From positions 1 to 26,825 of the forward strand of contig JAQVDA010000003.1 of the NCBI GenBank assembly GCA_028698535.1: a DNA stretch of 26,825 nt. The letters run 5' to 3'. This DNA comes from Bacilli bacterium. GTDB taxonomy: Bacteria; Bacillota_I; Bacilli_A; RF39; UBA660. Made by a program: the position numbers and the translations under genes. This document shows, piece by piece, positions 13,985 to 25,776 of the stretch. Position 1 is the stretch's first letter. Each line of letters starts with the position of its first letter. Under the pieces are notes generated by a model that searched no databases, was not told the DNA's origin, and saw nothing but the letters and a program-made list of their open reading frames with translations.

Positions 13985-14329
13985 ATGAGTTATCGAAAAC
14001 TAGGAACAAGAACATCAGAACAAAGAAGAATTATATTGGCTAATTTAGTTAGGCAACTAATTCAACATGAAAAAATTGAAACAACAGAGGCTAGAGCCAA
14101 AGAAGCTCGTAAAATCATGGATAAAGTAATTACCTATGGTAAAATTGGCACGGTAGAAGCCCGTCGCGATGCCCTAGCGTTATTAATGAACGATAAAGAA
14201 GCGGTTAAGAAAGTCTTTAATGATTTAGTAAAACGATATGAGAAGCGCTCCGGTGGGTATACAAGAATATTAAAACTAAAAGAGCGTCGCGGTGATGATG
14301 CTTTGATGGTTATCCTAGAATTAGTTTAA
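13985..14329 (+). CDS. rplQ: Large ribosomal subunit protein bL17
   Basis: L17 (114 residues) lies near the tunnel exit. The N-terminal MSYRKLGTRTSEQRRIILAN, the IETTEARAKEARKIMDKVI helix, and the C-terminal GGYTRILKLKERRGDDALM are typical. AAAGGAGG precedes the start. It is the last gene of the superoperon and is followed immediately by a hairpin terminator. Confidence 0.98.
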   Translation: MSYRKLGTRTSEQRRIILANLVRQLIQHEKIETTEARAKEARKIMDKVITYGKIGTVEARRDALALLMNDKEAVKKVFNDLVKRYEKRSGGYTRILKLKERRGDDALMVILELV

Positions 14330-14335
14330 TAAAAT

Positions 14336-14370
14336 AAAAAATGAAGATAGATAATTATCTTTATTTTTTT
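14336..14370 (+). terminator. Intrinsic terminator of the superoperon
   Basis: A 14-base arm (14336-14349) pairs with 14356-14369 with one G-U pair around a 6-base loop (14350-14355). The 3' arm runs into TATTTTTTT. It begins 6 bases after the rplQ stop, so it ends the superoperon before the accessory genes. Confidence 0.85.
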
Positions 14371-14433
14371 ATGTCAAATAATAGTCTAAATTAGTAAAGT
14401 TAAGGAATAACTAACAATAAGCTTCTTTTTCTG

Positions 14434-14442
14434 TGCTATAAT
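14434..14442 (+). promoter_or_regulatory. Extended -10 promoter of the SDR gene
   Basis: TGCTATAAT (14434-14442) is a perfect extended -10 element (TGnTATAAT) lying 28 bases before the start codon. No good -35 hexamer stands 17 bases upstream, which extended -10 promoters tolerate. It shows that the gene downstream of the terminator has its own transcription start. Confidence 0.6.
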
Positions 14443-14470
14443 TTTAGTAGTTAAGTCGGGAAGTGATGAG

Positions 14471-15223
14471 ATGAAAGTATTAATAACTGGGGCTTCTAGT
14501 GGTATAGGCATGGAAATGGCTAAATATTTAGACACGCTTAATCATGATTTAATTTTAGTCGCCCGCCAGAAGGATAAATTAATCAACCTAAAGGAACAGC
14601 TAACCAGAAAAGCGAAAATAATTACAGTTGATTTAGCGGATGAAGATGCTTGTTTACAACTATACCAAGCTGTAACTGATGAAAAAATTGATATATTAAT
14701 AAATTGTGCGGGCTTTGGTGTCTATGGTGAGTTTGCCTATACTGATTTACGTAAGGAACTAGATATGATAGATATTAATATCAAGGCAACCCATATCTTA
14801 ACTAAGTTATTTTTAAAAGATATGAAAAAAAGAAATAAAGGTTATATTTTAAATGTATCATCACTAGCCGCTTTCCAAGCCGGACCATTAATGGCTAGCT
14901 ATTACGCCACAAAAGCTTATGTTCTAAGAATGACAACAGCAATATATGAGGAGTTAAGAAGAAATAAATCCCAGGTTAAAATATCAGTATTATGTCCGGG
15001 TCCAGTGGCAACCGGCTTTAATGATGTGGCTAGAATAAAATTTTCCCAAAAACCAATGATGGGTCAATTTGTCGCTAAGTATGCTATCAATCAAATGTTT
15101 AAAGATAAGTTAATTATAATTCCCGGTTTTAAATTCAAACTATGTTATTTCTTTACTAGATTTATATCTATAAAGAAACTATTAAAAATTAATTATAATA
15201 TTCAACGGAAAAAGAGATTGTAG
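14471..15223 (+). CDS. Short-chain dehydrogenase/reductase (SDR), classical type
   Basis: A 250-residue NAD(P)-dependent oxidoreductase of the classical SDR family (COG0300-like). Visible motifs: the cofactor loop TGASSGIG (6-13), NCAG (78-81), and the catalytic Ser131-Tyr144-Lys148 set in NVSSLAAF and YYATK, followed by LCPGPVATGF. The basic C-terminus ends QRKKRL. The substrate cannot be told from sequence. The gene has its own promoter and lies 122 bases before the candidate peptide gene. A role in peptide tailoring is possible, but simple adjacency in an insertion hotspot is equally likely. Confidence 0.9.
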   Translation: MKVLITGASSGIGMEMAKYLDTLNHDLILVARQKDKLINLKEQLTRKAKIITVDLADEDACLQLYQAVTDEKIDILINCAGFGVYGEFAYTDLRKELDMIDINIKATHILTKLFLKDMKKRNKGYILNVSSLAAFQAGPLMASYYATKAYVLRMTTAIYEELRRNKSQVKISVLCPGPVATGFNDVARIKFSQKPMMGQFVAKYAINQMFKDKLIIIPGFKFKLCYFFTRFISIKKLLKINYNIQRKKRL

Positions 15224-15286
15224 AAATATCCTTTTTGTATATCTGATGTTAAATAATCGTAAAAGCCTATTTTTGTTATGGGTTAT

Positions 15287-15314
15287 TTGACAAGAACACA
15301 AAGTTATATGAAAT
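15287..15314 (+). promoter_or_regulatory. Possible promoter of the RiPP-like cassette
   Basis: A perfect -35 box TTGACA (15287-15292) is followed after 16 bases by a weak -10 candidate TGAAAT (15309-15314, 4 of 6 matches). The position, about 30 bases before the precursor start, is right, but the -10 is poor, so an activator or a different start is possible. Confidence 0.4.
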
Positions 15315-15345
15315 GTACCCAATCATATATAAAAGGAGGAAAATA

Positions 15346-15453
15346 ATGAAAAAAGTGTACACACAACCCCAAATATGCGCCTTTAAAATTATACCTAATA
15401 AGCCTAGCGTAAGTGGGTGCTGGCAAATTGCTAATCAACAAGATACTTGTTGA
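15346..15453 (+). CDS. Candidate RiPP precursor peptide (35 residues)
   Basis: This short gene has a strong ribosome site (AAAAGGAGG, 15331-15339) and ends in TGA. The 35-residue product starts MKKVYTQPQI. The Tyr5-x-x-Pro8-x-Ile10 pattern resembles the leader motif bound by PqqD-like (RRE) proteins in lasso and related RiPP systems (established for those families). The C-terminal third contains SGCWQ and ends in DTC. Cysteines are at 11, 25 and 35, with one Trp at 26. A PqqD-like gene and a radical SAM/SPASM gene follow directly, so I infer that this is their substrate. The leader/core boundary and the modification are unknown. No GG-type cleavage site is visible. Confidence 0.72.
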   Translation: MKKVYTQPQICAFKIIPNKPSVSGCWQIANQQDTC

Positions 15454-15459
15454 TTAAAT

Positions 15460-15502
15460 AAAACTATAGATTTATCAGGTTGGTAAATACTATAGTTTTT
15501 TG
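15460..15502 (+). terminator. Attenuator-like hairpin between precursor and maturation genes
   Basis: AAAACTATAG (15460-15469) pairs perfectly with CTATAGTTTT (15490-15499). ATTTA (15470-15474) with TAAAT (15484-15488) extends the stem around a 9-base loop, and the 3' arm runs on into TTT. It starts 7 bases after the precursor stop. In RiPP operons a leaky terminator here typically keeps precursor mRNA in excess of enzyme mRNA; that role is inferred. Confidence 0.75.
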
Positions 15503-15524
15503 TTTATATATAAGGAGATATTGT

Positions 15525-15809
15525 ATGAAATATAATTTAAATGATGATTATGCGATGCGAACTATAAACAATAATTTAATTATTTTCCCTAAAAAAACAG
15601 GGGTAAATGATATTATCTATAAATTTTCAGATATATCTAAAGTGATGTTAGAATTGATATTAAAGTATAACGATTTAGAGAGTGTTGTCTCTCAAATTAT
15701 TAGCATGTATAATACCAATCGAACAACTGTTAAAAGAGACTTAACAAAGTTTATTGAACAATTAATAGCTGCCAATATTTTAGAAGGGAAATGTAATGAA
15801 ACAAATTGA
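15525..15809 (+). CDS. PqqD-like RiPP recognition protein
   Basis: A 94-residue protein of PqqD-type length and pattern: LNDDYAMRTINNNLIIFP (about 5-22, winged-helix strands), IIYKFSDISKVMLELI, then repeated helices with IISMYNTNRTTVKRDL and FIEQLIAANILEG. Proteins of this family (RRE domain) bind leader peptides and present them to a radical SAM maturase. The ATG at 15525 follows AAGGAG (15512-15517) at 7 bases; an upstream in-frame start would fall within the hairpin and is rejected. It overlaps the radical SAM gene by 14 bases, which suggests coupled translation. Confidence 0.82.
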   Translation: MKYNLNDDYAMRTINNNLIIFPKKTGVNDIIYKFSDISKVMLELILKYNDLESVVSQIISMYNTNRTTVKRDLTKFIEQLIAANILEGKCNETN

Positions 15810-17325
15810 TATTAATTCAGCCGATTTAATTGGATTGTTATACGAACAGAGTGAGGGGAAAATAAATAATTGCAGTATTGAGATTATTAACTATTGCCCG
15901 TTTAAATGTGATTTTTGTTATATACCCAAAGATTCTAGAAATCATCTTCCTTATAAAAAAATAAAAAAAATATTAGATGAACTATTAAAATTAGATTGCC
16001 TTTCTATACTTTTTACTGGAGGGGAAATTTTATTACATCCAGAATTTAAAAAAATATATTTATATGCTTGGAACAAAGGATTTAGAATAGGCTTAAATAC
16101 CAATGGTTATCTTTTCAACGAAGAATGGCTCGAATTTTTTGACGAGTATAAACCAAAAACTATAGAAATTAGTATATACGGTTATAATAATAAAACTTAT
16201 CACCAATTTACTCATGTTAAGGACTCCTTTCCTAAAGTAGAAAAAACTTTAAACTTATTAAAAAACTGCGATATAAAAACAACCCTAAAATCATTATTAA
16301 CTAAACAAAACTATAGTTATTTTGATAAACTAGTTAAGTACGCCAAGAGTAAAGGATTACTATTTAGGTGGGATTTTGTTGTTTTCCCAGTCATAAACAA
16401 TAGTCATCATAGTTGTAATGACTTTCGTGTTGAAGCCGATAGGGCAGTTGATATTTTATTTTCATATCATGATATCAAAAAATATTTCGCGACTAAAGTT
16501 TTTGAAATGGGAATCCCTTTATTATCTAATAATAAAGTTTTTCAATGTAGCGGGGGTAAGGATAGTATTCATATCGATGCTAAAGGAAACATAAGAATGT
16601 GTTTATGCGTTCCTAATAAAGAATTAAATATTAATAACAATACAATTACGGAGAGTTTGATCTATTTTGAAAATTTTAAAAGGATGCCTTTTTCTAAAGA
16701 GTCCAAGTGTAAGGATTGTTATAAAAAGGGAGTATGTAGATACTGTCCGGGTCGCTTTTATCTAGAAACAGGTGATTATAATTGTAATGTTGAGTGGTAT
16801 TGTGATATAGCAAATGGAATAATAAGAAAAGTTAGAAAAAAAACATTAAAAGGTTTGTATTTAGATAATTTAAAAAAACGCCAAAAACTCGTACAAGCAA
16901 TGTATAAAATCATTATTAATAATATTAAAAAAACAAATGTTGATTTTAATGAAAAAGAGGATGATTATAAAAAGTGGTTTCATAACATTACCACTAATAA
17001 AGATTTGCGTACCATTGTTTTATTAGACAGAACTAAAGTTTGTGCCTATTTGCAGTATATTATTTTGGGGGACAATTATTTTATTTGTGAAATTCAAGTT
17101 GATGATATCTACCAAGGTGATGGTATCACATTTAGAAAACTAATAGGTGAATTTATTAAAAATAGTCGTATAAGTGCTAACGCCTCAGTATTAGGTAATA
17201 TTAATCCTAACAATCTTAAATCAATAACGGTTTTTTCTAAAATGGGTTTTAAAAGGACTAATAAAAATAATTACCATATAGGGGGCAATAAACTATTAGA
17301 GTGGTTTTATGGCAAAAAATTATAA
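15796..17325 (+). CDS. Radical SAM/SPASM peptide maturase fused to a GNAT-like domain
   Basis: This 509-residue protein has three parts. Residues 30-250 are a radical SAM core: the 4Fe-4S motif CPFKCDFC (Cys34, Cys38, Cys41) and GGE at 75-77. Residues 251-336 are a SPASM-type auxiliary cluster region with nine cysteines (251, 269, 271, 305, 308, 314, 317, 330, 336). Residues about 377-509 look like a GNAT acyltransferase: motif A-like YQGDGITFRKL (439-449), then NPNNLKSITVFSKMGFKRT (470-488). The gene overlaps the PqqD-like gene. I infer that it modifies the 35-residue peptide, perhaps forming a crosslink and then an acyl group. The chemistry is unknown. The gene looks more A+T-rich than its neighbours. 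Confidence 0.88.
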   Translation: MKQIDINSADLIGLLYEQSEGKINNCSIEIINYCPFKCDFCYIPKDSRNHLPYKKIKKILDELLKLDCLSILFTGGEILLHPEFKKIYLYAWNKGFRIGLNTNGYLFNEEWLEFFDEYKPKTIEISIYGYNNKTYHQFTHVKDSFPKVEKTLNLLKNCDIKTTLKSLLTKQNYSYFDKLVKYAKSKGLLFRWDFVVFPVINNSHHSCNDFRVEADRAVDILFSYHDIKKYFATKVFEMGIPLLSNNKVFQCSGGKDSIHIDAKGNIRMCLCVPNKELNINNNTITESLIYFENFKRMPFSKESKCKDCYKKGVCRYCPGRFYLETGDYNCNVEWYCDIANGIIRKVRKKTLKGLYLDNLKKRQKLVQAMYKIIINNIKKTNVDFNEKEDDYKKWFHNITTNKDLRTIVLLDRTKVCAYLQYIILGDNYFICEIQVDDIYQGDGITFRKLIGEFIKNSRISANASVLGNINPNNLKSITVFSKMGFKRTNKNNYHIGGNKLLEWFYGKKL

Positions 17326-17367
17326 TATATCATTCTAGTTTGAATTTATTTATTTTATTAACAATAT

Positions 17368-17397
17368 AATCCTGTATTACTAATATTTGGATTTTTT
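17368..17397 (+). terminator. Weak candidate terminator after the RiPP-like cassette
   Basis: AATCC (17368-17372) pairs with GGATT (17389-17393), with an inner TATT/AATA pair (17375-17378 with 17382-17385), followed by TTTT. The stem is short and interrupted, so termination is uncertain. The rest of the 127-base gap holds only the promoter of the next gene. Confidence 0.35.
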
Positions 17398-17399
17398 AT

Positions 17400-17428
17400 T
17401 TGTCTAAAACAGAACTTTCTTGTATAAT
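17400..17428 (+). promoter_or_regulatory. Promoter of the ecf-truA operon
   Basis: TTGTCT (17400-17405) and TATAAT (17423-17428) are separated by 17 bases, an ideal sigma-A arrangement, 24 bases before the ecfA1 start. The ecf genes therefore do not depend on the cassette inserted upstream. Confidence 0.75.
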
Positions 17429-17452
17429 ATGTAGTATGCATGGGGTGGTTGT

Positions 17453-18268
17453 ATGCCAAATATAATAAAGATTAAAAACCTTAGTTTTGGTTATGATGAT
17501 AAACAAATATTTAATAAATTTAATTTAGAAATAGAAGCGGGAGATTGGGTCTCAATTATTGGTCCTAATAGTAGTGGTAAATCTACTTTAGTTAGACTTT
17601 TAGTAGGTCTAGCCTGCAGTAATAAAGCGATTACCGTTGATACTCTAATGGTTAATCAGGAAAAAATAGTGGAAGTTAGAAAAAGAATTGGGGTTATTTT
17701 TGACGATTTAACTAATCAATTTATTTCAGATACGGTACGCGATGATATTGCTTTTGGATTAGAGAACTTAAATTATGATATAGCTGAAATCCATACTAGA
17801 ATAATGCGAATCGCAAGGGAATTAAAGATTGAACACTTATTAGATGCTGATCCACAAAGACTAAGTGGTGGTGAGAAGCAAAAGGTCGCTTTAGCCGCTA
17901 TTTTGGTAATGCAGCCCAAGATTATTATTTTAGATGAAGCTTTGGCGATGCTTGATACGAAGGAACAAAGGGAAATCTTAAACATATTAAAAGTGTTGCA
18001 CGAAAAAAGAAAGTTAACGGTAATCAATATTACCCATAATTTAGAGGAAACTTTATATGGAAATAGAATTATTGTGTTAAACAAAGGTAAGACGGTGATG
18101 GAAGGAAAAACTTTGGATGTTTTAAAAGAAGAACGGATTCTAACTAAGCTAGGTCTAGAATTACCTTTTATGGTTGATTTATCTTTGAAGTTAAACTTTT
18201 ATAATTTACTTGATGATATAATATTAGATATGGATGAATTAATTACTAAATTATGGCCAAGTAAATAG
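17453..18268 (+). CDS. ecfA1: ECF transporter ATPase subunit EcfA1
   Basis: One of two ATPases of the energy-coupling factor module, which powers uptake of vitamins and metals by exchangeable S components. It has 271 residues: Walker A GPNSSGKST (37-45), signature LSGGEKQ (137-143), Walker B IIILDEALAMLD and H-loop ITHN. The Q-loop, usually VFQNPDNQF in this family, reads IFDDLTNQF, so the conserved glutamine is an aspartate (residue 84). The ribosome site GGGGTGG is modest. In Bacillus this gene follows rplQ directly. Confidence 0.95.
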   Translation: MPNIIKIKNLSFGYDDKQIFNKFNLEIEAGDWVSIIGPNSSGKSTLVRLLVGLACSNKAITVDTLMVNQEKIVEVRKRIGVIFDDLTNQFISDTVRDDIAFGLENLNYDIAEIHTRIMRIARELKIEHLLDADPQRLSGGEKQKVALAAILVMQPKIIILDEALAMLDTKEQREILNILKVLHEKRKLTVINITHNLEETLYGNRIIVLNKGKTVMEGKTLDVLKEERILTKLGLELPFMVDLSLKLNFYNLLDDIILDMDELITKLWPSK

Positions 18269-21686: not shown

Positions 21687-23033
21687 TTATTTAGTGATTA
21701 TACTGGTATAAGGATAATAATGATTTAATATTTGGCGATAGGTATAGCCTTCTTTACCCATGCCATTAGCCCCATATTGGCTCATACCAACGCCGTGACC
21801 ATAACCTCTTGTTTTAAAGGTGATATTATTATTGGTTACGGAGATATCAAAATCAGCTGATCTTAGTCCAAATAAAGTTCTAATTTGCACACCGGAATAA
21901 CTTTTTTCACCAATTATTATTTCTTTAACACGGTCACCAGTTGTTTTTGAAACTGTTTGTACTTTAGTATCATAATTAAAGTTAAAACCCAAAATAGAAC
22001 TAGCTTCATTAAATGTTTTACTTACTTCTCGCGCATAAGTATTGGCGTTTAAATCCCAAGGACTGTTAACACTTTTTAAATATGGAAAACTTCCACCCCA
22101 GACATTAATAGGATCCTCTGTTTTCCCATTACTAGTTGAGTGGTATAAAGCATCAATATAATAACCATTAAAGGCTAGATATTGTCCTTTGGTACTCGCC
22201 ACCAGGTTTTTAATTTTATTATAGTAAGTATTAAAGTTACCGCCCCATTGAGCTTTTAATTGATTGTTATCTTTATATATTTGATGCGAATTAGTATCGG
22301 TTAAAACTTTCCCTTCGTGAATCCGTTTTAAGGCGTATGTACGCGCCGCGACACTTTGGGCTTTTAATGCTTCACCATGGAATAAAGCGGGCATCTCGGC
22401 ACTGACAACTCCAGTGACATAATCCTCTAAACTAATTTGTTCAATGGTGCCATTATAGCGGTATAAACTTACCATAGCTTCTTTTGGTTCTTCTTTTATA
22501 ATTTCCTGCTGAGGCTCTTTTGGTGTTTCTTTCGGAGCTTCTTTCGGTGTCGTAGGTGTGGTGGTTTTAGGTGGTGAGGTAGCCGGTATCTTTTGTTTTG
22601 TTTCGGTTTTAATTTCGGGGATTGCCGCTTCTTTTTTAGTTTCTTTTATCGTTTCTTCCTGTTTAGGATTGTCAACTACTATATCCGTTTCTTTCGTTTC
22701 TTTTTCTAAACTATCTTGATTAATATTATAACTCCACTGACTTTTATTATATTGAACATATTGAAAATCATCTTTAGTAATAGTGGCGGCATTAATAATA
22801 TTACTCATTAATATGGTAGTTATTACTATACCACCAATAACTAAATAAATTTTATTACTCTTTAATTTTATTTTATTTTTTTTGATAAAGGACACAATAT
22901 GATCATAAATATCTTGTTTTTTAGGCGCCTTTTTCGCATAAAGAAACTCCTTACTAAAATCAAAATCAGTATTAATATAGAGAAATAAACACGGTTTTTG
23001 ACCAACATATTTTATTTCATATCTTTCAAACAT
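21687..23033 (-). CDS. Membrane-anchored SpoIID/LytB-domain protein
   Basis: A 448-residue protein with a short cytoplasmic N-terminal part (1-60), one membrane segment (about 61-82), a Lys/Glu/Thr/Pro-rich linker (about 108-187) and an extracellular SpoIID/LytB domain (about 188-446). The domain has LEDYVTGVVSAEMP with Glu213, matching the catalytic Glu of SpoIID lytic transglycosylases, AQSVAARTYAL, and C-terminal GYGHGVGMSQYGANGMG. SpoIID cuts peptidoglycan during engulfment; in non-sporulating bacteria homologues act in wall remodelling. Start 23033 has a GGTGG site; an earlier ATG at 23078 lacks one. It lies 63 bases after the PLC-like gene on the same strand. Confidence 0.9.
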   Translation of the reverse strand: MFERYEIKYVGQKPCLFLYINTDFDFSKEFLYAKKAPKKQDIYDHIVSFIKKNKIKLKSNKIYLVIGGIVITTILMSNIINAATITKDDFQYVQYNKSQWSYNINQDSLEKETKETDIVVDNPKQEETIKETKKEAAIPEIKTETKQKIPATSPPKTTTPTTPKEAPKETPKEPQQEIIKEEPKEAMVSLYRYNGTIEQISLEDYVTGVVSAEMPALFHGEALKAQSVAARTYALKRIHEGKVLTDTNSHQIYKDNNQLKAQWGGNFNTYYNKIKNLVASTKGQYLAFNGYYIDALYHSTSNGKTEDPINVWGGSFPYLKSVNSPWDLNANTYAREVSKTFNEASSILGFNFNYDTKVQTVSKTTGDRVKEIIIGEKSYSGVQIRTLFGLRSADFDISVTNNNITFKTRGYGHGVGMSQYGANGMGKEGYTYRQILNHYYPYTSIITK

Positions 23034-23096
23034 AAAACCACCATTAGTAGTATTTAAAAAAAAGAACAAATAATACAAAAAAACTACGGTAGTGGT

Positions 23097-24068
23097 TTAA
23101 AAAGCAAAATAAATCATCTCTTGTTTTAGTTCGCAAGGTTTCCCAGTTAAGTATGAAAGATTAAGAAAGGTTCGTTTAAGTCTTTTAATATCGCGATTAT
23201 TATACAATACTTCATTAACATCATTGATAATACTTAAAGCTTTCTGAAGACTAATCATGTATAATTCCGGGAACGATAAGTCAAACACTTCATTTTTATC
23301 AGTTGGATGATTCCATTTGTTTTTCTCTAAATTTAGATAGTATCGTTTTTCGGCAAGACTTATATTATAAGATAAAAAAACAAATCTAAATGAAGGTTTA
23401 GGTATAATTTGATCCAAGCGCTGATATTGTCTTTTTTTAAGCCCATAAGGATCATAACGAAAAAGATGAAAGAAACTCTTCATTTGTTTAATCGCTTTAA
23501 GGTAAAATATATCGGCGTGTTTCCACTGATAAGTTGTATTTATTACATCATCAATGGTATCTTTTAAGGCGAGCGAAAAGTTATCAACATTAAAACAAAA
23601 CTGATGTAATTTAAATTTTTCAGGTTCAATGTTTTCTTTGATATAAATCATATAAGCATCAATATATGTTTCCATATCAAGGTGAAGGCCAATATACTTA
23701 TAGGTGTTTTTCTTCTTTTTATTAAAAAAACCAGTTTGATAGAAAACAAAAGGGTGAACAGTACTATCTAATACATAATGGGCAATAGAGCCATATAGAT
23801 AGGCGATAACTTCGGGTTGATATTCTAATTGGTGTTCTTTAATAAAGGTAACTAAATTAAGGAAAAAAGCTCTGGTTTTGGTAATATGCATCTCAAAAGA
23901 TAAGATTTTTATCTTCGCTTTAGTATAATTATAGAAATATAAGGGATCGGGTCCCTGGGCGAAGACCTTTAAATATTCAAGATGATTTTTTAATAGTTTT
24001 TTAGCGTTTTCATCAAGGTTATCATAAATATCTAACATAAAGTAAGCGTGGGTAATGGTACTCGGCAT
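23097..24068 (-). CDS. Zinc-dependent phospholipase C-like protein
   Basis: A 323-residue protein with the metal-ligand order of the zinc-dependent phospholipase C family: His7, Asp41 (GPDPLYFY), His61, His97-x3-Asp101-x3-His105 (AHYVLDSTVHPF), and His129-x3-Glu133 (LHLDMETYID). The secreted enzymes begin with a Trp ligand after signal cleavage, but here there is no signal peptide, so it resembles the intracellular family members, whose substrate is unknown. The ATG at 24068 follows AAGGAG (minus strand, 24083-24078); an upstream start at 24125 is not supported. It is probably cotranscribed with the SpoIID-like gene. Confidence 0.85.
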   Translation of the reverse strand: MPSTITHAYFMLDIYDNLDENAKKLLKNHLEYLKVFAQGPDPLYFYNYTKAKIKILSFEMHITKTRAFFLNLVTFIKEHQLEYQPEVIAYLYGSIAHYVLDSTVHPFVFYQTGFFNKKKKNTYKYIGLHLDMETYIDAYMIYIKENIEPEKFKLHQFCFNVDNFSLALKDTIDDVINTTYQWKHADIFYLKAIKQMKSFFHLFRYDPYGLKKRQYQRLDQIIPKPSFRFVFLSYNISLAEKRYYLNLEKNKWNHPTDKNEVFDLSFPELYMISLQKALSIINDVNEVLYNNRDIKRLKRTFLNLSYLTGKPCELKQEMIYFAF

Positions 24069-24081
24069 ATTAAACCACTCC

Positions 24082-24104
24082 TTCTTTAAGTATATCTTAA
24101 AGAA
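24082..24104. promoter_or_regulatory. Perfect 9-bp dyad overlapping the PLC-like gene's ribosome site
   Basis: TTCTTTAAG (24082-24090) is the exact reverse complement of CTTAAAGAA (24096-24104), with a 5-base A/T spacer. It lies 14 bases upstream of the start at 24068 and overlaps the first two bases of the Shine-Dalgarno. It could be a repressor operator or an RNA hairpin limiting translation. Low complexity makes chance possible. Confidence 0.4.
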
Positions 24105-24190
24105 AGAAAGAAAATGAAAAAACATAATAATTTAATTATTTTAATGGCGCTTTTCTTTAAAAGTATTTTAATATAAAAACTTTTATTTTA

Positions 24191-24287: not shown

Positions 24288-24455
24288 ATGAATTTTGATA
24301 TTGAATTAACAGAACAAGAAAAAATGATGAACAAACTAGAAGAAGAAAATAAGATTGATTTTGAAAATGATTCTATATTTGCGGATGAAAACATTTATGA
24401 TTTAGAACCTGATGAGGATATAGATGAACAACAAGGGGGATGCGAGTATGAATAA
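24288..24455 (+). CDS. Small acidic protein of unknown function (55 residues)
   Basis: A 55-residue protein supported by a strong ribosome site (AGGAGG, 24275-24280), its own promoter and coupling to the next gene (8-base overlap). It has 21 Asp/Glu against 3 Lys. The first half is probably helical (LTEQEKMMNKLEEEN), and the C-terminus contains QQGGCEYE with the only cysteine (Cys52). I do not recognise a family. It could be a partner, chaperone or inhibitor of the 442-residue protein. The GG-Cys end recalls some peptide leaders, but only four residues follow the GG, so a precursor role is weak. Confidence 0.7.
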   Translation: MNFDIELTEQEKMMNKLEEENKIDFENDSIFADENIYDLEPDEDIDEQQGGCEYE

Positions 24456-25776
24456 GAGCAAAAGTGCTAAACGCTTAAAGGAGTTTTTTAAAGAAATAAA
24501 GGATTATGTTCAAAACAATCCAGATATTAATTTTGAAAAAATATATAATGTGCTTAGTATCTATCACTTGCCCGAGGAAGAAAGGAACGTTGATTTACAA
24601 GCTGTTAAGAATAGTGTAACCGAAACGGTATGTGCCAATTTGAGAGCAAACGCGAATGTAGGTAGTTTTAATGTTATAAGCCAGGGCGAATATTTTAATC
24701 ATATTAATGTTATATTTCGCGGTAACCTTAGATCTGGGCTAAGAGATGTTGTCAAAATCTATTTACCGGTTGTTAATTATGAATTAGGTGCGGTGGCAAT
24801 GAGGGTTTATAAATTTTTGAATATTAACGGAATTGGTTATTATTCAAAAATTGCTGGTTATGGTCGCTTAGATAATTTTATTGTCCGTGTGCATAGTGTC
24901 GAAGAGGCAAAAAAGTTAATCGATTTTTGTAATGAAAGCGCCGATATAAAAAAACATATTAGATTATCTAACCCTTTTGTACCAGAAGAAAAGGGTTTTG
25001 GGGTAGCTAGAGATACTTATGGTATTAGTTATAATGCTGTTGTAGCTCGCGAATTAAGTAATTTTATTCAAGGCTGTATAGATAATAATAAAATAAACGA
25101 TATAGATTTAAAAGGCTTTTATAAATTTTTAATTAAAAGGGAGTCTCTTTTTAACCAAGAAGATAATCTAGAGAAAGGTTCTGGTTATCATTTTTGTTTA
25201 AAGGAGCTGATTAACAATATTGATGTAATGAGGAAAAATAAAAGTCCCCTTCAACAGATGGAGAAAGAAACAACAATAATATTTGATAAGGATTACTTTT
25301 ATTCATTTACATCTCAGGTTGATTATAATGGAAGTTATTACTACGAGAGTACTGATGGTCAAATAATTACTAAAGGGCAATATGAATGGTATAAATTACA
25401 GGCGATGAAGTTTTGTTATGAATTATACGTTTATAAATATAAGCGCACACCTGATACTTCTTTTATCTTAAATAGAGCTATATTAAGTGAAGTTAAGAGA
25501 AATTTCGATCAAGTTAATGATGATAGTAGTAAGCGTGTAGAGTGTGCGATTATACCTTGTGAATTGCTTGAACAAGAACCATTGATGAATGAGCTTTATG
25601 CCTCTTTATATGTTATTATTGGGGTTGAAAGTAGAGGGTTATCACAAGAACAAGCCGAAGCAATGGGCCGTTTTGTCAAAAACAAAGTTACTTTTTACAC
25701 AGTTTTGGACGCTGTTGATCCACTTGAAGATACTGTCAGTATTAATAAACTATTAAAAGTTAAAAAGAGGTACTAG
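24448..25776 (+). CDS. Hypothetical protein with HopA1-like N-terminal half
   Basis: A soluble 442-residue protein without signal or membrane segments. I do not recognise the whole protein. Residues about 88-210 follow a pattern I recall from HopA1-type proteins, the lyase-like partners in class V lanthipeptide clusters: VVKIYLPV, GAVAMRVYKFLN, YYSKIAGYGRLDNFIVRV (Lys134, Arg140, Asp142), then NPFVPEEKGFGVARD and ISYNAVVARELSNF. This match is tentative. The C-terminal 200 residues are mainly helical and unassigned. The start at 24448 follows AAGGGGGA at 7 bases; ATG 24424 lies inside the overlapping gene. It is translationally coupled to the acidic 55-residue protein. Confidence 0.65.
   Translation: MNKSKSAKRLKEFFKEIKDYVQNNPDINFEKIYNVLSIYHLPEEERNVDLQAVKNSVTETVCANLRANANVGSFNVISQGEYFNHINVIFRGNLRSGLRDVVKIYLPVVNYELGAVAMRVYKFLNINGIGYYSKIAGYGRLDNFIVRVHSVEEAKKLIDFCNESADIKKHIRLSNPFVPEEKGFGVARDTYGISYNAVVARELSNFIQGCIDNNKINDIDLKGFYKFLIKRESLFNQEDNLEKGSGYHFCLKELINNIDVMRKNKSPLQQMEKETTIIFDKDYFYSFTSQVDYNGSYYYESTDGQIITKGQYEWYKLQAMKFCYELYVYKYKRTPDTSFILNRAILSEVKRNFDQVNDDSSKRVECAIIPCELLEQEPLMNELYASLYVIIGVESRGLSQEQAEAMGRFVKNKVTFYTVLDAVDPLEDTVSINKLLKVKKRY

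Follow-up and report, generated by a model that had tools for sequence, protein, structure and literature searches.

The 26,825-nucleotide stretch analysed here, positions 1 to 26,825 of contig JAQVDA010000003.1 from a member of the Bacilli, is referred to below as the window. On its forward strand, between positions 15346 and 17325, lie three consecutive genes that very probably form a cassette for a ribosomally synthesized and post-translationally modified peptide (RiPP), with a 35-residue peptide as its precursor. This confidence covers the cassette and the part played by the peptide, not the chemistry performed on it. An earlier note had picked out the same three genes, and open reading frames (ORFs) and domain models bear them out: the peptide, a PqqD-like protein of the RiPP recognition element (RRE) kind, and a radical S-adenosylmethionine (SAM) protein with a C-terminal GNAT-like domain, called the maturase below. 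The features are:

15335..15339, + strand: ribosome site GGAGG of the precursor gene, read from the sequence
15346..15453, stop included, + strand: precursor peptide of 35 residues, MKKVYTQPQICAFKIIPNKPSVSGCWQIANQQDTC, an ORF belonging to a family of 60 precursors
15358..15369, + strand: YTQP, the YxxP leader motif and putative RRE-binding site; Y..P in 57 of 58 counted precursors, YxxP being an RRE recognition motif in PMC12710340
15415..15450, + strand: core GCWQIANQQDTC, of the 12-residue type, placed by alignment; ratio of nonsynonymous to synonymous differences (pN/pS) 0.13 against locus L025
15460..15499, + strand: hairpin with a T-rich 3' arm after the peptide gene, from folding; a hairpin occurs at 5 of 5 loci
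15525..15809, + strand: stand-alone PqqD-like RRE of 94 residues; PF05402 at 27.1 bits (cut-off 23.4), fused to the maturase in relatives
15796..17325, + strand: radical SAM/SPASM-like maturase of 509 residues with a C-terminal GNAT-like domain; PF04055 at 87 bits, ten Cys invariant in 16 of 16 sequences
16849..17322, + strand: GNAT-like domain, maturase residues 352–509; a separate gene at loci L024, L026 and L027, its profile matching solved N-acetyltransferases

Is a reading frame of this length more than a chance opening? The peptides upstream of the five maturases located in genomes were read directly from their loci. A profile of four of these peptides retrieved 15 precursors, the window's own (P0031) included, and a profile of those 15 gave 62 matches at E ≤ 10. 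The union holds 63 proteins: 60 complete precursors (P0017–P0076, with P0046/P0049 and P0055/P0073 as near-duplicate rows with other starts), two leader relics (P0077 and P0078) and one fragment (P0079). Since a profile search draws in rows similar to its query, the family figures describe the set found rather than all that may exist. The strict core pattern is fitted by 58 of the 63, P0071 and P0076 deviating by Ser for Asn. Cores have either 12 residues (GCWQVANQEDAC type, 15 rows) or 15 (GCWQQSYSANDGDGC type, 43 rows, plus P0071 and P0076 as two more), with no length in between among the 60 precursors; the difference consists of three residues placed between a head, Gly-Cys-Trp/Tyr-Gln, and a tail, Asn-x-x-Asp-x-Cys-COOH. 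The final residue is Cys in 60/60, with no residue after it. Position 1 is Gly in 59/60 (Asn in P0069), position 2 is Cys in 59/60, and position 3 is always aromatic (Trp in 50, Tyr in 10). The third residue counted back from the core end is Asp in 59/60 (Glu in P0054), and Asn, where present, keeps a constant spacing to Asp and to the terminal Cys. Averaged over the 1008 pairs, drawn from 58 precursors, whose cores are equally long, identity is 0.72 in the core against 0.37 in the leader, and pN/pS of the core is 0.13, 0.17, 0.22 and 0.48 in the four pairs computed. The window's peptide has three Cys; the 58 cores together contain 120 Cys and only two Lys. Judged by these sequences, the short reading frame is no chance opening, since 60 precursors share its core pattern.

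The leaders are looser. Only one of the 58 precursors counted is without Y..P; the MKKxYxxP form given in the earlier note fits the window, but longer relatives carry YxxP in mid-leader. A second, GNLAL-like leader motif occurs in 52/58 (for example, residues 19–24 of P0017) and is lacking from the window's leader; it might serve as a protease or transporter signal, or as a second contact for the maturase. The residues before the core Cys read xG, where x is Met, Cys, Ala or Ser in 58; one precursor has Asn for Gly. When 58 precursors (P0049 and P0073 being left out) were scanned against Pfam and NCBIfam, no family matched more than two of them at E ≤ 1. One member alone gave a strong library match, to SpoVS (1.8e-8); by the protein search this member is P0046. 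The precomputed domain covers the first residues of P0046, and its twin P0049 starts elsewhere; the contig is possibly chimeric.

Could the short reading frame instead encode a leader peptide of the regulatory kind, acting by attenuation on the hairpin and on the enzyme genes that follow? The hairpin between the first two genes, to which the earlier note had drawn attention, is real by folding: at −14.7 kcal/mol it is more stable than any of 200 shuffles (z −4.8), and a hairpin stands directly 3' of the peptide at all five genomic loci. This would suit attenuation, as would the Trp and Cys codons near the end of the ORF. But the amino-acid sequence is conserved while the codons change synonymously, a leader motif and a C-terminal core recur across the 60 peptides, and the enzymes are of the RiPP kind. 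Conservation at the protein level led us to reject a purely attenuating role, to which we attach a very slight probability. Within a RiPP cassette, the hairpin perhaps limits read-through into the enzyme genes, and it may keep precursor output above enzyme output. A terminator scan that demands G+C found no terminator at the hairpin, and an Rfam scan of window positions 14300–17500 gave no match at E ≤ 0.1. The ribosome sites are clear before the first two genes, that of the RRE gene being AAGGAG at 15512–15517, and the 14 bases shared by the RRE and maturase genes (15796–15809) are likewise as first described.

How closely does the precursor accompany the maturase? With the window's maturase as query, a search of 5.8 billion proteins returned 16 matches: P0001 is the window's own protein, P0002–P0012 are clear relatives (36–42% identity) and P0013–P0016 are distant. 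The maturase alignment was then run against 386 genomes of the same family at E ≤ 1e-40, a scan that scored no more than three first-look candidates in each genome and could therefore miss members. Eight genomes matched. Five carry this radical SAM protein (the window's genome, G000, and G006, G266, G344 and G377), two the GNAT part only (G187 and G422), and one a different radical SAM protein (G100). At E < 1e-10 the precursor profile matches exactly the same five genomes and none of the other 381; the profile includes peptides or near copies from four of the five loci, which makes it fair for absence but not independent for presence. At 5/5 genomic loci the core lies directly upstream of the radical SAM protein, as the earlier note had proposed that a short peptide would. 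Weak precursor matches (E 1.6e-4 to 0.0076) without a GCW-type core occur in nine further genomes. Four of these loci (L045, L046, L047 and L050) were read in three frames, and when the loci collected by then were searched in six frames for GCW, 4–14 residues, Cys and a stop, only the five cassettes emerged; that pattern is blind to GCY-type cores.

Wider searches gave a similar picture. With the precursor profile at E ≤ 1e-5, a class-level draw of 395 genomes yields the window's genome alone, and a draw of 242 at the level of the family around G344 yields three, all known. In the genus of G377, one of 12 genomes matches, G377 itself. In the genus of the GNAT-only genomes G187 and G422, three further genomes gave no match at E ≤ 1e-30. 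At class level, where again up to three candidates per genome were scored, the maturase alignment matches ten of 395 genomes at E ≤ 1e-40, one being the window's; the other nine matches are confined to the profile's radical SAM part, and the one examined, in G100, is a different YxxP cassette. That cassette (L028, G100:C16, 1227–2813) encodes a 104-residue PqqD-domain protein (35.3 bits against 23.4), a 374-residue radical SAM protein (185 bits to alignment A1) and then a 41-residue peptide that starts MKYVKP and has two Cys. A single-protein scan of the genome collection returned only a 22% match in Burkholderiales, and viral contigs two 29% matches over 119 residues; plasmids (queried with P0055 only) and phages (queried with P0018 only) returned none. 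A home on mobile elements finds no support, though the loci sit in differing surroundings. The system is rare and patchy. The window's genome itself is of 670 kb in 85 contigs, 80% complete, and belongs to a family of small genomes.

The domain models identify the enzymes with varying force. The window's RRE passes PF05402 (27.1 bits; cut-off 23.4), as does that of L025 (30.1 bits). The fused RREs scanned fall below the cut-off (L026, 16.6; P0005, 22.3; P0010, 17.7), and that of L024 gives no match. Of the NCBIfam models, WgkC scores highest on the window's RRE, though weakly (21.3 against 110 bits). In a 2025 survey (PMC12710340), YxxP is a characterised recognition motif of lasso leaders, and W/Y/LxxP/L/I motifs are predicted for RRE groups that hold FusE, McjB, PqqD and StsC. 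The motif, the fused RREs and this survey together suggest that the RRE here would bind its leader at YxxP.

For the maturase, the radical SAM assignment is firm: PF04055 scores 87 bits against a cut-off of 29.5, and the CxxxCxxC cysteines reported earlier (C34, C38 and C41) are invariant in 16/16 aligned sequences. Seven more Cys in the SPASM region (C251, C269, C305, C308, C314, C317 and C336) are equally invariant. Among the 25 listed of 48 NCBIfam matches at E ≤ 1, none reaches its cut-off (bits/cut-off: AlbA 53.4/850; StsB 42.2/625; WgkB 33.8/650; GrrM/OscB 37/310; PqqE 40.1/381.35; mycofactocin MftC 43.3/265). Among relatives of solved structure, the maturase profile matches the sactisynthase SkfB best (63.7 bits); the SkfB model matches 16/16 members of the maturase family, with a best E of 6.8e-17.

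The C-terminal domain is more equivocal. All seven aligned GNAT-domain sequences match PF00583 at E ≤ 1 (best 6.9e-8); P0005, which has all three domains in one chain, passes the GNAT cut-off at 30.1 bits; and solved N-acetyltransferases, such as 4ua3 and the bS18-alanine N-acetyltransferase 9mto, turn up as matches to the GNAT profile. A Glu on the strand before the coenzyme A (CoA) loop position and a Tyr near the C-terminus are invariant in 7/7, at positions that we take to coincide with the usual GNAT catalytic residues. For the earlier labels SPASM and GNAT, both models stay below threshold on the window's own protein; the seven extra Cys and P0005 speak in their favour.

Are the three domains parts of one system? 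They fuse and split among relatives, which ties them together. In the window and at L025 there are two genes, the RRE and a radical SAM–GNAT protein; at L024, L026 and L027 there are also two adjacent genes, here an RRE–radical SAM protein and a separate GNAT; in P0005–P0007 all three domains form a single chain. Among database chains whose neighbours are not visible, P0002–P0004 are radical SAM–GNAT, P0009–P0011 are RRE–radical SAM, and P0008 and P0012 are the radical SAM protein alone. A tree built from the radical SAM part sorts most rows by architecture, but full support is confined to 5 of its 13 inner branches. The window joins the other radical SAM–GNAT chains without an RRE (support 94/91, on a very short stem), its own branch being the longest at 1.23, while P0008 and P0012 are placed beside the RRE–radical SAM rows.

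What speaks against a RiPP cassette of this composition? In the window's maturase, SPASM reaches only 14.3 bits (cut-off 21.5) and GNAT 16.3 (cut-off 23.6), and the canonical GNAT CoA pyrophosphate loop motif, Q/RxxGxG/A, is absent from 13/13 GNAT domains. The GNAT part occurs without the rest of the cassette in G187 (L069, 7109–7630) and G422 (L070, 4590–5072), two loci that, by reading, have similar neighbouring genes. The first core Cys is Ser in P0057. Outside the five genomes, pairing of maturase and precursor is indirect, through a matching assembly statistic, and reaches only 4 of 11 database maturases (P0002/P0029, P0007/P0038, P0008/P0059 and P0010/P0070). Read as ORF lists, with ten proteins from them and from L028 scanned with Pfam, the examined loci show no recurring exporter, protease or immunity gene. 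Finally, the expectation that the peptide frame stays intact wherever the enzymes do failed once: the G377 precursor has an in-frame stop in its leader, with core and enzymes open. The same genome holds a second, decayed cassette (G377:C1, 44867 to about 45160; L054 and L068) in which a leader lacks its core. Its remnants read like an RRE and a GNAT tail, and P0077 and P0078, from other contigs, are similar relics; also from other contigs comes P0036, a complete precursor whose core and flank are very similar to those of the G377 cassette. By reading, the decayed cassette and the two GNAT-only loci have neighbouring genes in common. The decay in G377 and the GNAT-only genomes look like loss, although in the latter the GNAT domain may also never have been joined to a radical SAM part; at the same time they mark the cassette as one that its hosts can do without. 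We nevertheless retain the RiPP cassette, which is supported by the 60-member precursor family, by co-occurrence and by domain fusion.

What might the cassette do to its peptide? The RRE would bind the leader and present the 12-residue core to the radical SAM/SPASM-like enzyme, which would make one or more cross-links in the head and/or the tail; the GNAT-like domain would then act on the same substrate. Action of the radical SAM enzyme on the core is suggested by its family, with SkfB as the closest solved member, and by core conservation, and a cross-link, which may be a thioether, is likely given the conservation of Cys, Trp/Tyr, Asn and Asp. By analogy, the chemistry we rate highest, at just short of an even chance, is a thioether bond that starts at a conserved Cys, in the simplest case joining the C-terminal Cys to an Asp or Asn close by. 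We put it first for two reasons: the core has fixed Cys, Asp and Asn, and such bonds have precedents, NxxcA linking Cys23 to Asn20 and freyrasin linking Cys to Asp (PMC8326336). We consider it unlikely that the maturase instead makes a carbon–carbon (cyclophane-like) or ether cross-link at Trp/Tyr, leaving the Cys as disulfide or metal ligands. Such a bond would fit the aromatic residue found at one core place in 60/60, the Ser of P0057 and the weak preference of the RRE for the WgkC model, but not the invariant C-terminal Cys or the WgkB and GrrM/OscB scores far below cut-off. The usual three-residue cyclophane, moreover, joins an aromatic residue to the beta-carbon two residues on, and in six GCWQG cores (P0059, P0061, P0064, P0070, P0071 and P0076) the residue so placed is Gly; as a general chemistry, a three-residue cyclophane at Trp was therefore rejected. 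More speculative still, and in our view a long shot, the radical SAM enzyme would decarboxylate the terminal Cys oxidatively, as the mycofactocin enzyme does Tyr, and join it to the Asn/Asp tail or the Gly-Cys-Trp head, with the GNAT fold using another donor. The product would then be a conserved peptide cofactor or signal of small-genome Bacilli, a new RiPP class without a dedicated exporter. The C-terminus is cast as substrate here because the terminal Cys is strict in 60/60.

Returning to the proposed RRE-guided cross-linking, what is left for the GNAT-like domain? Two coupled modifications, as the earlier note had it, go beyond these data: with the canonical CoA loop degenerate in 13/13, acetylation is left a guess. 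Because the 58 cores hold only two Lys, an acyl group would go to the N-terminal Gly after cleavage, to a thiol, or nowhere. The near-absence of Lys makes the N-terminal Gly the natural site, and we regard its acylation after leader removal as doubtful, an inactive binding module being at least as likely. That the domain is a substrate- or partner-binding module with a kept fold, rather than an acyltransferase, is a serious possibility, if one we would hold at somewhat less than even weight: the missing loop and, in several relatives, the fusion of the domain to the radical SAM enzyme speak for it, while the invariant Glu and Tyr at places where GNATs carry catalytic residues, the passing score of P0005, and its retention as a separate gene at L024, L026 and L027 and alone in G187 and G422 speak for an enzyme.

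Is the product an ordinary antimicrobial, exported and released by a general peptidase–ATP-binding cassette (ABC) transporter? A C39 peptidase–ABC transporter is present in 7/7 examined genomes with a cassette or an orphan GNAT. It is also present in 37/37 same-family genomes of a 60-genome set, and as a family-wide trait it was rejected as a part of the cassette. Nor do the precursors have a double Gly before the core Cys, only xG; no recurring nearby immunity gene was recognised by reading; and conservation is higher in the core than in the leader, opposite to the pattern of many antimicrobial RiPPs. Such an antimicrobial is decidedly unlikely on these grounds. A core so unusually fixed suggests a product with a definite target or task, as a signal or cofactor would have, and not a rapidly evolving antibiotic. 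In the window's genome the transporter gene (L071, G000:C56:1562–3697) is followed by a 160-residue ORF without a Pfam match at E ≤ 0.1.

The neighbourhoods of the five cassettes are all different. In the window a short-chain dehydrogenase gene, identified by Pfam scan, precedes the cassette and two ABC ATPase genes of the energy-coupling factor type follow it, at the end of a run of ribosomal-protein genes; the ATPase and ribosomal-protein genes were named by reading their ORFs. The dehydrogenase gene was rejected as a recurring part: it lies upstream at only 2/5 loci (the window and G344), and the two proteins are 23% identical over 195 residues. The absence of an adjacent transporter or protease, claimed from the window, stands in that none recurs, though not for each locus. 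Two adjacent M16-family peptidase genes in G377 (L067, 4385–6932) end about 850 bases upstream of the peptide, and in G344 the genes for an ABC ATPase and for a binding-protein-dependent permease stop roughly 1.5 kb before the cassette. Some RiPP pathways (pyrroloquinoline quinone, PQQ, and subtilosin) employ M16 peptidases; those of G377, which by reading recur at none of the other four loci, are candidates for leader removal there, or chance neighbours. In G266 (L065, 408–800) a 130-residue ORF directly upstream of the precursor has no Pfam match at E ≤ 0.01. Farther along the window, positions 24424–25776 encode a 450-residue protein with no Pfam match at E ≤ 0.1, and on the − strand (21687–24125) a SpoIID-domain protein (81.5 bits) adjoins a zinc-dependent phospholipase C family protein (39.2 bits).

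How new is the system? No family in the Pfam and NCBIfam libraries searched covers the precursors, and a search of the open-licence literature found no title describing this precursor or a radical SAM–GNAT fusion. The precursors and their maturase are an uncurated RiPP family. The earlier label of a new RiPP class is justified to that extent and no further, because RiPP classes are defined by their modification and the bond chemistry here is only predicted. Small-genome Bacilli are not, to our knowledge, recognised as rich sources of modified peptides. If our reading is correct, the cassette offers a compact test case for the roles of conserved, probably non-antibiotic RiPPs and for cooperation between a GNAT fold and a radical SAM enzyme; its three genes lend themselves to simple heterologous tests, with 60 natural precursors as a ready substrate panel.

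By analogy, the family works like known radical SAM RiPP systems, each of which it resembles in part. It has in common with the sactipeptide systems SkfB and StsB/StsC an RRE and a radical SAM enzyme acting on a Cys-containing peptide, SkfB being its best solved relative, and the RRE group of StsC has the predicted W/Y/LxxP/L/I motif in the survey (PMC12710340). It differs in that the AlbA and StsB models score far below cut-off, the precursors match no library family, a GNAT is present and no recurring exporter or immunity genes were seen. Like the ranthipeptides (SCIFF, freyrasin and NxxcA) it has Asn, Asp and Cys, fixed here as N-x-x-D-x-C; unlike them, it has about two Cys per core, as against six in forty-five residues, its core ends at Cys, and its bond is only predicted. 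The streptococcal tryglysin (WGK) radical SAM RiPPs also combine a PqqD-family protein with a radical SAM enzyme, there of the SPASM kind and here SPASM-like. However, the WgkB and WgkC scores are low, the window's peptide has no WGK and the tryglysin precursor model matches 2/58 precursors, at a best E of 0.33; Rgg-type regulators were not searched for. PQQ and mycofactocin, the latter made at the C-terminus of its precursor (Val-Tyr), likewise depend on a PqqD-type RRE and a radical SAM/SPASM enzyme, but here the PqqE and mycofactocin models stay below cut-off; further genes of those pathways were not searched for in the genome. With lasso peptides the likeness lies in the YxxP leader motif and a small, discrete RRE; the lasso RRE models reach 19.7 bits against cut-offs of 80 and 70, and a radical SAM enzyme takes the place of the cyclase and B2 protease, for which no genome search was made. 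Microviridin cassettes, finally, also include a GNAT. There it is a separate protein whose partners are ATP-grasp ligases, whereas here the GNAT-like domain, with its degenerate CoA loop, can be fused to the radical SAM enzyme itself.

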